A stretch of DNA of 32,514 bases from a virus: the IMG/VR virus record IMGVR_UViG_3300042450_001491, positions 1 through 32,514 of that record. One strand, written 5' to 3'. Under the pieces are notes generated by a model. The model was not told where the DNA came from, searched no databases, and saw nothing but the letters and a program-made list of their open reading frames with translations. Of the stretch, positions 12,478-20,907 are shown piece after piece. The stretch's first letter is position 1, and the number at the start of each line of letters is the position of its first letter. A program made the position numbers and the translations under genes.

Positions 12478-12521
12478 GCGCGGGCAAGATGCGCTGAAAC
12501 AAACGGCGACGCGAATGCCGC

Positions 12522-13875: not shown

Positions 13876-14288
13876 TGCCCCGGCGGAATCAATCCGCTGC
13901 GCAGGTTGCTGAGGTAGCCGTCGAGGGCTTCGGACTGCTCCGGCGTGAAGCCTCCTTCATTGCGAATCGTGCCGCTCAATTCGGTATGGTTGCTGATTTG
14001 ATCTGACTGCCCGAGCATCTGCTTGCCGAGCCAGATGAGCATCGTGACGTTGCCTGCTAAGGCCAGTTCGATCTGCTTCTTGCGCAGTCGGGTTTTCCCT
14101 CCGTTGCGACCTTTGTTAATATCCTCCGCAAAACGTCGCGCCAACGTATCCACTGAGACGCCAACGATGGACGCGATCTCTGAGTTAGGACAACCGATCC
14201 CGGCAAGGTTCTCGACCAGCTTTGCATCGACCACGGCCAGCGGTCTTCCGGTGGCTATCTTTGATTCGTTTTTGGGTTTGAGCTTCAT
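13872..14288 (-). CDS. terS: Terminase small subunit
   Basis: The 138-residue protein has a basic N-terminus and a helix-turn-helix (CPNSEIASIVGVSVDTLARR, about 33-52), then helices with KKQIELALAGNVTMLIWLGK that suit oligomerisation. It recognises phage DNA and recruits the large subunit. The start at 14288 overlaps the stop of the glycosyltransferase gene as ATGA, tying packaging to the modification genes. Confidence 0.8.
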   Translation of the reverse strand: MKLKPKNESKIATGRPLAVVDAKLVENLAGIGCPNSEIASIVGVSVDTLARRFAEDINKGRNGGKTRLRKKQIELALAGNVTMLIWLGKQMLGQSDQISNHTELSGTIRNEGGFTPEQSEALDGYLSNLRSGLIPPGQ

Positions 14289-15034
14289 TTTTTAACAGGG
14301 GCGAAGTGTTTCCAGTTTATCCGGCAGTCCTCGCGACCATCCGGCTTGGTGAAGGCTTCGCAAATCTCCTTGCCCCACAGTTCCTGCATCTTGCGGGACG
14401 ATGCCGCCTCCTTTCCGGCTTTTAGATATAGCGATTGAAGCCCGCCTTTGTTGCTGCCGTTTTGGGGCGCCGAGAAGGAAATCTGAGAAGCCCTCGCTGT
14501 CATCCGGCCGGATGCTAAGACTTGAAGCGTGAAATCACGGTCGAGCTTCAACGTAACGGCCTCTCGAAAACTCAAATCCATCGTGCGCTGGGTGTTGATG
14601 CAAACCGCTACGTCGCAGTAGCCGTTTAGCTTGATCGGGCTTTTCGATGACCAAGCATATTGCTGATATTCCAAGGCCGCTTGACCAAGGTTTGGGATGC
14701 CCGAAAGGATCATCTGCGCTTCAATTAAAGCGGCTTTTGCTGTAGCGCGGGAGTTTTTCTTACCGTTGGAGCGGTAGAACCCAGAGATATCGTCGTCCAG
14801 CATCCAGAACCACTTAATGCCCGCTTCCCGGCAATGAGTCAGAATGCTGTTGCGGGAATAAACCAATCCCCGGTCGTTTTCCTCAAGCCTCATCACCCTG
14901 CCTTTGCTGGCGTAATGCTCCGCCTCTTGCGGCTCGACAACGAACTCAAACGCCAAGCCGGACTCTGCTAAAAGTCGGCCCGTGCGCTGAGTTTCGGCGC
15001 GGCTCTTGCTCGGAATGAAAATCGGCCAGATCAC
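14285..15034 (-). CDS. TET-associated glycosyltransferase (TAGT-like)
   Basis: The 249-residue protein has a GT-A style fold: it opens with IWPIFIPSKSRAETQRTG, reaches MLDDDISGFY with a DxD-type metal and sugar-nucleotide site at Asp80-Asp82, and continues with AVCINTQRTM and a basic C-terminal part. This is the type of glycosyltransferase found next to phage TET/JBP genes, thought to add a sugar to 5-hydroxymethylcytosine. The start is GTG at 15034, overlapping the TET stop as GTGA. The stop overlaps the terminase small subunit start. The exact donor sugar cannot be read from sequence. Confidence 0.75.
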   Translation of the reverse strand: MIWPIFIPSKSRAETQRTGRLLAESGLAFEFVVEPQEAEHYASKGRVMRLEENDRGLVYSRNSILTHCREAGIKWFWMLDDDISGFYRSNGKKNSRATAKAALIEAQMILSGIPNLGQAALEYQQYAWSSKSPIKLNGYCDVAVCINTQRTMDLSFREAVTLKLDRDFTLQVLASGRMTARASQISFSAPQNGSNKGGLQSLYLKAGKEAASSRKMQELWGKEICEAFTKPDGREDCRINWKHFAPVKK

Positions 15035-15855
15035 TTTTTCTGCCTTTCCTTGGTGGTTTTGGACTTCTCAATCAGCGAGCGCGATGCCCGCATTTTTTCA
15101 ACTTCGTCGTGCGGCGTTTCGCAAGACCACATATTCTTGAGTGAATAGAAAACGACCGTGTAGCGGACGGAGTCGGCGTTGAGCTTGATGATTGGCGTCA
15201 CCCCATGCAGCAGGGATTGCCCATCGAACATGATCAACGATCCGTCCGCGCACTCAAATTTCATGTCTAGCTCTGGAACTGAAAGGTGCCCCCCTTTAAT
15301 GTCCCGCTTGACGGCGAACATGGCCGACCAGACTCCGACGTAGTTGCCCGTGTCGTAGTGGTATTTGAGCGGGTTGTTGTGGTTGACGATTCCGCTGGTG
15401 AACATCGACCCATTCATCCGGTAGTTTTCCTTGACGTTCTCACGGGTCATGGCGCTGTGGCGCTCGTGTAACTGTTTGTTGACCCGTTCGTATTGCTCCT
15501 CCGCAATGCAGGCGAATCGTTTTAGCACGTCGTTTTCCTTGGGTTGACTGCGGGCTAGCGAGGCCGCTCGGCAGGACAAGTTGCGGATCATGTTGCGCGG
15601 GGCGTAGCCGAAAATCTTCGATGCCGTCACCAGACCGTTGGTGCGGGTGCTATTGTCGTATTTGATTTTTTCAAGCGTCTCTAGCAACACCTTCGTTTCT
15701 TTGGACGGTTGCTTAAGGTAAACGATGATCGGCACCCCGTCCTGTGTAACCACGGTATCTTCCTTGATCAGCTCCGAACAATCGCCTTCGCCCGCTGACC
15801 TGTTGCGGAGCTCCTTTAGGTCAATCTTCTTCGGTTTGACGCTGAGAAATTGCAT
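15031..15855 (-). CDS. TET/JBP-family 2-oxoglutarate/Fe(II) dioxygenase
   Basis: This 274-residue protein carries the iron site His166-x-Asp168 (YHYDTG) and His217 (SLLHGVTP), and the 2-oxoglutarate-binding Arg231 within RYTVVFYSLKNM. That last motif matches the TET/JBP signature of Arg, hydrophobics, VFY and K-M. Enzymes of this family oxidise the methyl of 5-methylcytosine or of thymine. Residues 1-150 are a helical N-terminal extension. The gene overlaps the ParB-like gene by 35 bp and the glycosyltransferase start by 4 bp. The most likely job is to make 5-hydroxymethylcytosine, which the next enzyme glycosylates. No methyltransferase was recognised in this genome. Confidence 0.85.
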   Translation of the reverse strand: MQFLSVKPKKIDLKELRNRSAGEGDCSELIKEDTVVTQDGVPIIVYLKQPSKETKVLLETLEKIKYDNSTRTNGLVTASKIFGYAPRNMIRNLSCRAASLARSQPKENDVLKRFACIAEEQYERVNKQLHERHSAMTRENVKENYRMNGSMFTSGIVNHNNPLKYHYDTGNYVGVWSAMFAVKRDIKGGHLSVPELDMKFECADGSLIMFDGQSLLHGVTPIIKLNADSVRYTVVFYSLKNMWSCETPHDEVEKMRASRSLIEKSKTTKERQKK

Positions 15856-16486
15856 ATCCGTTGGTTTCTAGCAGGTGGTTAACGACCTCGGTGTTGTTGC
15901 TTAGGCCGTGCTGTTCAGCGTACTGGCCCATGGCTTCAATAGCGGCGTCGTATTCCGCCATGGTGTAGACTAAGATCACCTGACGGATAATGGATTCGTC
16001 GTAATTTTCAAACCTTTCGGCCATGGTTTTGTCATGGTTGACGACCTCGGCAACCTCCGGCTCAGGCGGATTCAAAAACGCCTCGATGGCGTCATTGTCG
16101 AAGCCAAGAACCCCCAAGTCGAAGTCGGCTTCGCGCAGGTCCGCTAGTTCAAGCCCAAGCATTTCCTCGTCCCATGCGCTGTTCATTGCGAGCTTGTTGT
16201 CAGCGATGACGTAGGCACGCTTTTGATTCTCGGTCAGGTGACTCAGCCGGATGCAGGGCGCGGTTTCAAGCCCGAGCTTACGGGCCGCCAAAATCCGTCC
16301 GTGCCCAGCGATGATTCCATTTTTCCCGTCGATCAGCACGGGGTTGGTGAAGCCGAACTCACGGATCGAAGCGGCCACTTGGGCCACTTGGGCATCGGAA
16401 TGCGTGCGGCTGTTGCGGGCGTATGGGATCAACGCCTCGACGGCGACTTGTTCGATTTTCGGGTCTGCTTTAGTTTGTGATTTCAT
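15821..16486 (-). CDS. ParB/Srx-fold nuclease-domain protein, associated with the modification genes
   Basis: The 221-residue protein has a ParB N-terminal domain (about 13-100), with IREFGFTNPVLID, then GIIAGHGRILAARKLGL (58-74, the ParB box II region) and HLTENQKRAYVIADNKLA. In phages this domain is often fused to or placed beside DNA methylases. Here only a short acidic C-terminal part (110-221) follows, with no methylase motifs. The gene heads the ParB-TET-glycosyltransferase run and overlaps the TET gene by 35 bp. It may target or assist modification, or have CTPase/nuclease activity; this is inference. Confidence 0.7.
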   Translation of the reverse strand: MKSQTKADPKIEQVAVEALIPYARNSRTHSDAQVAQVAASIREFGFTNPVLIDGKNGIIAGHGRILAARKLGLETAPCIRLSHLTENQKRAYVIADNKLAMNSAWDEEMLGLELADLREADFDLGVLGFDNDAIEAFLNPPEPEVAEVVNHDKTMAERFENYDESIIRQVILVYTMAEYDAAIEAMGQYAEQHGLSNNTEVVNHLLETNGYAISQRQTEED

Positions 16487-18831: not shown

Positions 18832-19023
18832 TTATTGTTCTTCGTGGTAGGTGGTTTCATCATGTGAGTCGTAATCGCTGCCCTCCATGCAGTCGCAGTC
18901 GCCGCATAGCAGGCAGACTTCGAGCAGCGTTTTTCGGAATATCGCGTCGTGGTTTTGGCGGTAGGTCTCGCCATCCACCTTTCGGGGCGCGTCGCCTTTT
19001 CCGGCTGAGTGTTCTCGGTTCAT
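18832..19023 (-). CDS. Small acidic protein with AGKGDAPR motif
   Basis: The 63-residue protein starts at the ATG at 19023, which overlaps the DnaA-like stop as ATGA. It carries HSAGKGDAPRKVDGETY and two cysteine pairs (CLLC and CDC). AGKGDxPR-type short proteins are common in phages, but their role is not known. The C-terminus is very acidic. Confidence 0.55.
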   Translation of the reverse strand: MNREHSAGKGDAPRKVDGETYRQNHDAIFRKTLLEVCLLCGDCDCMEGSDYDSHDETTYHEEQ

Positions 19024-19385
19024 TTTTTTAATAGGTTGTTGCATTGATCGGCGTATTTTCTGAAGTGCGGGTTGTTGATGTATTGGTTTTTATAGGCTTT
19101 CAGCGCGTGAATGATCGTGGCGTGATCCTTCCGGCCGAACTGCTTGGCAGTCTTTTCAAGCGTCCAGTATGGGTTAAGCTTCCGCGCTTGATAGATGCTG
19201 ATAAAACGGGCGAAGCTGGCCTCTTCTGTTCGCCGTTTACTGAGGATGACTTCCCCCGGAACGCCTGTGACTTGAGACACGGCCAGAACGACATCAACGA
19301 CCTTGGAACGCTCGCCCAGTGCAGCTCGGCGCTTCAGCTCTGCAATCAGTTCCGAGGTCGTGAAATTTACGATTTCGGCGATCAT
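19020..19385 (-). CDS. Stand-alone DnaA domain IV (DNA-binding) protein
   Basis: The 121-residue protein is the C-terminal part of DnaA without the ATPase. Residues 25-100 match the domain IV helix bundle: VVLAVSQVTGVPGEVILSKR, then SFARFISIYQARKL, then the signature GRKDHATIIHA (84-94) in place of GGRDHTTVLHA, with Arg85, Asp87, His88 and Thr90. Residues 1-24 are not from DnaA. It lies after the initiator and loader genes (ATGA overlap) and could bind DnaA boxes to recruit or block the host initiator. Confidence 0.8.
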   Translation of the reverse strand: MIAEIVNFTTSELIAELKRRAALGERSKVVDVVLAVSQVTGVPGEVILSKRRTEEASFARFISIYQARKLNPYWTLEKTAKQFGRKDHATIIHALKAYKNQYINNPHFRKYADQCNNLLKK

Positions 19386-20125
19386 GCTGCGCTCGCCCTC
19401 CTGAATGATTCCCAGTCAAAAACGAACGCCTTGCCGTTCTCGCGCATCCGGCTCTTGATCGAATCTCCGAGCGCATCGCGCATCTGTTCTCGGTTGTAGT
19501 TGCCGATGATAACGGTCGGCCGTTTGGCGGCGTAGCGTTTGTCAATTAGGTTCGCGATGATGCGGTTTTCCCACTCGGAACCACCTCGCTCTTGAAACTC
19601 ATCAATGACCAGAAAGCCGGGCGAAGAGAGTTTGCCAAGCACGTCCTTTTCTGAAACCTTGGAACCGCTTTTGTTGCAGTCCCGAAGGTCGAGGAAAACG
19701 TCCATCGCCCGCCGGTAAATCGCGGTTTGGTTGCGCTGCATTCTTCCGCCCGCCCCACCGATCCATTCGCCCTCGTCGAGCGGCCAATCTCCGCCGCGTG
19801 CGATCTCCGCTGCCATTTGTGTTTTTCCCGGTCCGCGACCGCCAATGAAAGCAACGAGCGCGGATTTTGAAACCAATGCTTTGGCCTCGGCAAATACCTC
19901 CAACCAGCGGTCACCCGTTAGCTCGATTGGTTTGACGTATTTCTCGCCCCAGCCATTCACCAGTTTGACGAGATTCGGCTTTGCGTCGAGGATACCCCTA
20001 GAATCGCTTTGAACGTCATCCCCCTTGATTCCCCCTACGGGAGCGGCTTCAGCCATGCTAGCGAACGTCCTAGCGAGCGTGAGGGCAAAGTCTTGCGCCT
20101 CGTTGATGTTTCGATTTGGGTTCAT
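19382..20125 (-). CDS. DnaC-like helicase loader (AAA+ ATPase)
   Basis: The 247-residue protein has Walker A GGRGPGKT (95-102) and Walker B FLVIDEF (171-177), with the AAA+ fold of DnaC/IstB-type loaders. It would place the host DnaB helicase on opened DNA at the phage origin. It overlaps the initiator stop and the DnaA-like start (ATGA both sides). N-terminal residues 1-50 are a short extension. Confidence 0.85.
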   Translation of the reverse strand: MNPNRNINEAQDFALTLARTFASMAEAAPVGGIKGDDVQSDSRGILDAKPNLVKLVNGWGEKYVKPIELTGDRWLEVFAEAKALVSKSALVAFIGGRGPGKTQMAAEIARGGDWPLDEGEWIGGAGGRMQRNQTAIYRRAMDVFLDLRDCNKSGSKVSEKDVLGKLSSPGFLVIDEFQERGGSEWENRIIANLIDKRYAAKRPTVIIGNYNREQMRDALGDSIKSRMRENGKAFVFDWESFRRASAA

Positions 20126-20907
20126 GGCAGTTCTAGGTTTTCAATCATGCCAGCGAATCGGCGGGCGGGTTGACGGTTAGCCGGGATGTCGCCACCCCGT
20201 TCCTGCTCGCGGGCCAGCCATGCGCTCAGGTAGCGCCCGACGGCTTTCTTCCGCTTGGCCGGGTTACGCTTCAGCCATTCGCCAGCGGCGGCAATTGAGC
20301 GGTCGATATTCACGGCTGGGTATGCCCGCTTCCATCCGAGTCGGTCAGCTTCCGAGATTCCCGAAAATCCAGCTTCGTCGTCGTAGGTGATCCCGACTTT
20401 TTTCGTCGGCACGGAGCAGGAACTTGTTCCGCTCAGTGCAAAAGGAGATTCATCTCCTAATTCTATTTCCTTCTTTTCTATTCTATTCCTTTCTCTTCTC
20501 TTCTCTTCCGTTGAAGCTGAGCTTGAAGGGGTGCTTGAAGCTATGCTTGAAGCATCTTCTGGAATGCCTTTGTCTACGGCGTTTTTGGCTCTTGCCTTTC
20601 CGCCTCGTTGCCCTCCTTCGCGCTTCATTCGCACCTCGTTTTCCTTCTCGACCGGGTAGCCCCAGACGGTCAGCGAATCCGCCTCCCATGTCCACAGGTC
20701 GCAGTGACTGCAAACCTCATCAGTGGTTACGCCGCACGTCTGCTGCCATCGACGTGCTTTCCACTCTCCGCACGCTGCAATCTTGCCTCCGTTTTCCTGC
20801 TCGGCGCAGTAAGCCAGCAGGCAGAGCCATGTCGCTCGTTGCTCTGGCTCGGAGCCGATAAATTCGGGCGAGCGCAGGGTTTTTGTTTCGATATTGATCC
20901 AGTTCAT
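20122..20907 (-). CDS. Replication initiator protein with internal origin
   Basis: The 261-residue protein has a winged-helix-like N-terminal half (about 1-95: FIGSEPEQRATWLCLLAYC), a Ser/Thr/Glu-rich linker (about 115-160) and a C-terminal helical part (YPAVNIDRSIAAAGEWLKR). It precedes a DnaC-like loader, as lambda O precedes P. The DNA encoding the linker holds four 12-bp iterons and an adjacent pyrimidine-rich tract, the layout of the lambda origin. A longer frame to 21096 overlaps the RuvC-like gene and is rejected. The start ATG is at 20907. Confidence 0.7.
   Translation of the reverse strand: MNWINIETKTLRSPEFIGSEPEQRATWLCLLAYCAEQENGGKIAACGEWKARRWQQTCGVTTDEVCSHCDLWTWEADSLTVWGYPVEKENEVRMKREGGQRGGKARAKNAVDKGIPEDASSIASSTPSSSASTEEKRRERNRIEKKEIELGDESPFALSGTSSCSVPTKKVGITYDDEAGFSGISEADRLGWKRAYPAVNIDRSIAAAGEWLKRNPAKRKKAVGRYLSAWLAREQERGGDIPANRQPARRFAGMIENLELP
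20441..20556. other. Putative replication origin inside the initiator gene
   Basis: Four 12-bp iterons lie in tandem at 20509-20556: CGTTGAAGCTGA, GCTTGAAGGGGT, GCTTGAAGCTAT and GCTTGAAGCATC, sharing TTGAAG in register. They abut an approximately 50-bp pyrimidine-biased, AT-leaning tract (20458-20508) that could melt. A palindrome, GGAGAT-TC-ATCTCC (20444-20457), lies on the far side. Lambda places its iterons and AT-rich tract in the same part of its initiator gene. The protein it encodes here is a flexible linker, so the DNA could be free to evolve. Confidence 0.6.

Follow-up and report, generated by a model that had tools for sequence, protein, structure and literature searches.

Does the gene for the replication initiator of this phage also contain the phage's replication origin? 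The earlier note had answered that it does: it read the DNA encoding the flexible linker of the initiator as a lambda-style origin, with four tandem repeats, a pyrimidine-rich tract and a small palindrome. The window analysed here, i.e. the whole stretch of DNA, is the entire 32,514-bp IMG/VR virus record. It belongs to a tailed phage whose portal is of the Mu type and whose integrase gives a weak match. Since its closest annotated relatives are Akkermansia phages, and contigs of Akkermansia and Opitutaceae genomes contain relatives, the host is likely a Verrucomicrobiota bacterium.

The initiator and its gene neighbourhood

The early genes lie on the minus strand in the order RecT-like annealing protein, exonuclease VIII-like protein, Holliday junction resolvase, initiator, DnaC-like loader and DnaA domain IV protein. 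The features used below are as follows.

20122..20907, minus strand: initiator gene, 261 aa, comprising a winged-helix-like domain at the N terminus (up to about residue 112; AlphaFold2 model), a linker and a C-terminal domain (phrog_3926)
20545..20553, minus strand: iteron 1, GCTTCAAGC
20533..20541, minus strand: iteron 2, GCTTCAAGC
20521..20529, minus strand: iteron 3, CCTTCAAGC (GCTTCAAGC in the close relative L002)
20509..20517, minus strand: iteron 4, GCTTCAACG, continuing into the purine tract
20449..20509, minus strand: AT-rich homopurine tract, candidate unwinding region, with the purines in the coding strand (run score, permutation, relatives)
20443..20458, no strand: small palindrome AGGAGATTCATCTCCT, present, not significant (p=0.09), not conserved
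19382..20125, minus strand: gene for a DnaC-like helicase loader (phrog_50, E=5e-29; phrog_3277, E=3e-18)
19020..19385, minus strand: gene for a protein of 121 aa with DnaA domain IV and little else (Bac_DnaA_C, E=1.6e-14)

The DnaC-like loader that had been said to follow the initiator is indeed encoded directly downstream, with a 4-bp overlap between the two genes and a clear profile match (phrog_50, E=5e-29); because the genes are on the minus strand, "following" means at lower coordinates. The DnaA domain IV gene comes directly after the loader gene in the window, and likewise in the relatives L002, L039 and L041. Its product is possibly an accessory replication protein or initiator, or a competitor of host DnaA. 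No DnaA boxes were found in the window. Elsewhere on the minus strand (14285-16486), consecutive genes encode a TET/JBP-type oxygenase (1.7e-11), a TET-associated glycosyltransferase (1.9e-20) and a ParB-like protein, a row of probable phage cytosine hypermodification genes judging by these matches.

The full-length initiator matches the phrog_3926 replication initiation protein profile with E=6.5e-4, and 15 of 41 members of the initiator family match the same profile, weakly but consistently. The N-terminal domain was modelled by AlphaFold2 with a pLDDT of 93. The model has three helices, two strands and a long C-terminal helix, a fold that we read as winged-helix-like. The viral proteins closest to it in structure are HTH proteins, replisome organizers and DUF1376 proteins; the resemblance to several DUF1376 models is weak, and the initiator has no match to Pfam PF07120, the profile for DUF1376 / YdaU-type phage replication proteins. 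Solved structures give weak matches as well (best Foldseek E-value 0.46; best VIA-align Z 4.5, with plant NLR chains on top), RepA_N plasmid initiator structures among them (VIA-align Z 3.3-3.9), so we claim no fold family beyond winged-helix-like. We also looked for homology of the initiator to lambda O and found none: the N-terminal domain does not match Phage_rep_O (PF04492) up to a limit of E=10, a profile to which lambda O itself scores 5.7e-36, and BLASTP detected no similarity between the initiator and lambda O.

Iterons and a homopurine tract in the linker DNA

The four copies sharing TTGAAG on the plus strand, noticed earlier, are present at an exact 12-bp step. They are part of a fuller 9-bp unit, the odd palindrome GCTT(C/G)AAGC, of which there are four sites within 20509-20553 on the coding (minus) strand. 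Because the unit is an odd palindrome, both strands offer identical half-sites. A second 4-copy array of identical 6-mers with a period of 8-24 was found neither in the window nor in 100 Markov-1 simulations of it. The tract, described before as pyrimidine-rich and roughly 50 bp long, extends over 61 bp (20449-20509); on the coding strand it reads GGAAGAGAAGAGAAGAGAAAGGAATAGAATAGAAAAGAAGGAAATAGAATTAGGAGATGAA, consists almost only of purines and abuts the iterons. It is 67% AT and the strongest purine/pyrimidine run in the window, with a score of 40 compared with a maximum of 29 in 200 simulations. Iterons and tract together (20449-20553) lie inside the initiator gene (20122-20907), in its linker DNA, as had been proposed.

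To separate DNA-level signals from what the protein requires, synonymous codons were permuted within the gene, keeping protein and codon usage. The 12-bp repeat exceeded the protein requirement with p=0.002, which is the lowest value that the test can give; the tract reached the same value.

The small palindrome fared differently. It exists at 20443-20458, with p=0.09, and only 2 of 52 relatives have a palindrome at the matching place at p<0.05; it was therefore rejected as a conserved origin element and is probably not part of the origin. GC skew in the window has a shallow local minimum near 22 kb, which is confounded by gene direction and gives no clear origin signal, and an origin call from skew was rejected as uninformative.

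Conservation of the DNA rather than the peptide

Relatives were collected in two successive scans, the first with the initiator protein and the second with an N-terminal domain profile, which yielded 73 initiator genes, 54 of them non-redundant. A homopurine run (counted from a score of at least 20) occurs in 52 of the 54, compared with 20 of 402 gene-sized flanking chunks, and in 26 of 28 after clustering of the N-terminal domain at 85% identity. It is found on the coding strand, immediately after the DNA for the N-terminal domain. The two relatives in which the long tract is missing are L067, which has a short gene, and L058, with a score of 17. The tracts average 0.59 AT compared with 0.45 for the genes, and in 43 of 54 relatives they exceed the synonymous permutation at p<0.05.

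Upstream of the tract, the best repeat lag in bp (n=52) was 12 in 25 genes, 24 in 9, 11 in 7, 25 in 6 and 23 in 2. With the protein held fixed, the repeats pass p<0.05 in 34 of 52 genes; many Akkermansia-type repeats are not above the protein-fixed expectation (e.g., L006, L052), and L041, L060 and L061 have no significant repeat by synonymous permutation. The check proposed in the earlier note, conservation of the repeats in related phages, thus turned out positive, and the corresponding refuting condition did not apply: a repeat of 11-12 or 23-25 bp and a strand-asymmetric tract occupy the same place in most relatives.

The iteron sequence itself differs between subgroups: GCTTSAAGC, AACCCAAGC, AACCCAACG, ACCNACGTNGGT, AACCANNTGGTT and GAACCGAACGGTTC. 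Long palindromic classes tend to be spaced by about 24 bp and simple ones by 11-12 bp, a pattern that is consistent with one half-site per 11-12 bp. In most relatives, and across several iteron classes, a boundary sequence, CAACGGAA or GAACGGAAAGG, links the last iteron to the tract. The gene downstream of the initiator varies, too: it encodes a DnaC-like protein in the window and in L002, L015, L039, L041 and L051, and a DnaB-type helicase in many others.

The strongest evidence that conservation acts on the DNA is its independence of the reading frame. GCTTSAAGC is read as ASSx in the window and L120, as xLEA in L013, L100 and L142, and as QLQA in L157, and L188 has it in all three frames inside one gene (ASSK, QLQA, SFKL). 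In the AACCCAAGC class, the period of 11 bp places successive identical iterons in different frames, where they read NPSK, KTQA, KPKQ or EPKL. We conclude from the identical iteron in three frames and from the 11-bp arrays that the conserved thing is the DNA and not the peptide. In addition, the window and L002 differ synonymously at 2 of 30 sites within the proposed origin, compared with 40 of 152 over the remainder of the gene (Fisher p=0.018). A search with DNA only, for GCTTCAAGC-N3-GCTTCAAGC, found 92 viral stretches compared with 13 for a reversed-sequence control. A purine run adjoins 13 of the 50 non-redundant matches (background 2%; control 0/9), and 9 of these 13 fall in a homologue of the window initiator.

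Some individual loci bear on how the sites are read and exchanged. The N-terminal domains of L098 and L012 are 89% identical, and their iterons are GCTTSAAGC and AACCCAAGC, respectively, with AAGC common to both. Closely similar domains thus go with different iterons, and specificity is therefore no simple function of the N-terminal domain, which may recognise the AAGC half or tolerate variation in the site. In L151, a different N-terminal domain with GCTTGAAGC iterons is joined to the C-terminal end found in L003, which looks like a domain exchange at the origin/linker junction. L094 has, near 12515, four GCTTCAAGC-like sites at a 12-bp step in linker DNA, with a purine run downstream; the N-terminal part of this phage protein does not match the initiator family of the window, and it is perhaps an unrelated initiator using the same site.

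A predicted origin working like ori-lambda

The origin of lambda consists of four 18-bp iterons and a 38-bp AT-rich sequence within gene O (PMC3349717), and nearly all purines of the region are in one strand (PMC5043065). In lambda gene O, AAAAGAAAAAAGAAAAGA (39138-39155) comes after the annotated iterons (39034-39118) on the coding strand. The lambda-like layout is thus real, as iterons and purine run match in order and strand inside the initiator gene. Common to both systems are an origin site inside the initiator gene (predicted here, experimentally mapped in lambda), four iterons followed by an AT-rich purine run on the coding strand, and, as the next gene downstream, one for a helicase loader (lambda P; DnaC-like in the window). 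They differ in the iterons, which in lambda are 18 bp long with starts 20-24 bp apart and in the window are 9-bp odd palindromes every 12 bp, and in the palindrome, which in lambda comes after the purine run and has no conserved counterpart in the window family. Also unlike lambda, the window initiator has no detectable sequence relation to O. Of the lambda-style reading, the layout and the conservation of the period therefore stand, the palindrome falls away, and homology to lambda O was not detected; for this last reason we propose an origin that works like ori-lambda and claim no family membership.

Directly established are the anatomy of the locus, its non-chance nature, the constraint at the DNA level, the fixed position and polarity, and the adjacent genes for initiator and loader or helicase. 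From this anatomy and from the lambda parallel, we consider it highly probable that iterons and tract form a phage theta-replication origin inside the initiator gene that works like ori-lambda. Iteron binding, tract melting, helicase loading and origin activity are what the ori-lambda paradigm would predict here. The winged-helix-like N-terminal domain would bind the 9-bp sites, about one per helical turn, and the assembled initiator array would open the adjoining AT-rich homopurine tract by straining it. Through its C-terminal domain, the initiator would then recruit the DnaC-like loader (in many relatives, a phage DnaB-type helicase), and the recruited loader would put the replicative helicase on the exposed strand. 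The tract might also be more than a passive melting region, namely a loading signal read by sequence, recognised in single-stranded form by the initiator or by the phage DnaA domain IV protein, much as bacterial origins have their DnaA-trio. Such a role would account for the purine asymmetry of almost all members, yet we regard it as rather unlikely.

Could the pattern have no function as DNA and be a by-product of a flexible, low-complexity, charged linker (Ser/Ala, then Glu/Lys/Arg)? The peptide is linker-like, purine-only codons give just K, E, R and G, and in some Akkermansia-type members the repeat does not rise above the protein-based expectation. In the window, however, repeat and tract each reach p=0.002 under synonymous permutation, and the reading of one iteron in three frames as unrelated peptides, together with the 11-bp periods, already contradicts this explanation, to which we give hardly any credence. 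Equally implausible in our view is an origin of repeats and tract by replication slippage, or their use as a joint at which N- and C-terminal domains are exchanged by recombination. Some tracts, for instance GGAGAA repeats, do look slippage-grown, C-terminal domains vary among relatives with like N-terminal domains, and L151 combines an L003-type C-terminal end with another iteron class. Slippage by itself, however, does not account for polarity, position and phasing that persist through turnover of the repeat sequence, or for one 9-bp site in several frames, and recombination at the junction can itself result from a shared origin.

Iterons also serve regulation (autorepression, copy control, titration) in plasmids and phages, and the evidence presented here is of constraint at the DNA level only. 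The array might accordingly be a regulatory binding site of the initiator with such a role, and the origin might lie elsewhere. We consider this improbable: the array is located mid-gene, away from the gene start, its invariant purine- and AT-rich neighbour is a hallmark of an unwinding region, the same layout in lambda is a mapped origin, and the window has no other iteron array of such quality.

Related arrangements are found in known phages. Akkermansia phages Chantilly, Chambord and DTMo-2021a have a homologous N-terminal domain (42-50% identity), and their linker DNA, too, carries repeats and a purine tract; they differ in their iterons, which are of the AACC..GGTT type, and in their C-terminal domains, and in Chantilly and Chambord the initiator gene is followed by a DnaB-type helicase gene and not by one for a DnaC-like loader. 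In two annotated Akkermansia phage records the protein is named hypothetical, and no origin is marked in the stretch examined. The replisome organizer (gp42) of Ruminococcus phage phiRgIBDN1 (L009, 1572-2390) has a C-terminal domain related to that of the window initiator (28% identity), and its linker DNA contains repeated GTCAACC followed by a purine-biased stretch. Its N-terminal domain and iteron are different and no comparably strong homopurine run is present there. The repeats and the purine-biased stretch suggest that the layout extends beyond the initiator family of the window. E. coli Rac ydaU has a modest purine run (score 19), and Lactococcus phage TP901-1 rep has no comparable purine tract. 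Iteron plasmid origins have helix-phased arrays of initiator sites beside an AT-rich region (PMC5043065), a feature that the window shares with them, including those of RepA_N plasmids; no sequence relation was found, and a location in linker DNA next to a homopurine tract is not known for the plasmid arrays. A literature search on the replication initiation protein of Akkermansia phages and prophages found nothing, and no paper on the initiator family of the window appeared in the titles and abstracts searched, a search outside which most subscription literature lies.

The principle of an origin inside the initiator gene is already known; new is the family-level variant. With it, the origin can be predicted precisely, at the level of sequence, in dozens of phages, among them Akkermansia phages in which the initiator is annotated as hypothetical. 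The variant also indicates that a layout like that of ori-lambda recurs with an initiator domain that has no detectable relation to lambda O. Purines in one strand at origins have been called paradoxical in a review, as they stiffen the DNA (PMC5043065). As subgroups differ in their iteron but agree in phasing, polarity and purine tract, the initiator family is a natural experiment on how initiators read repeats and on why the purines of origins are confined to one strand.
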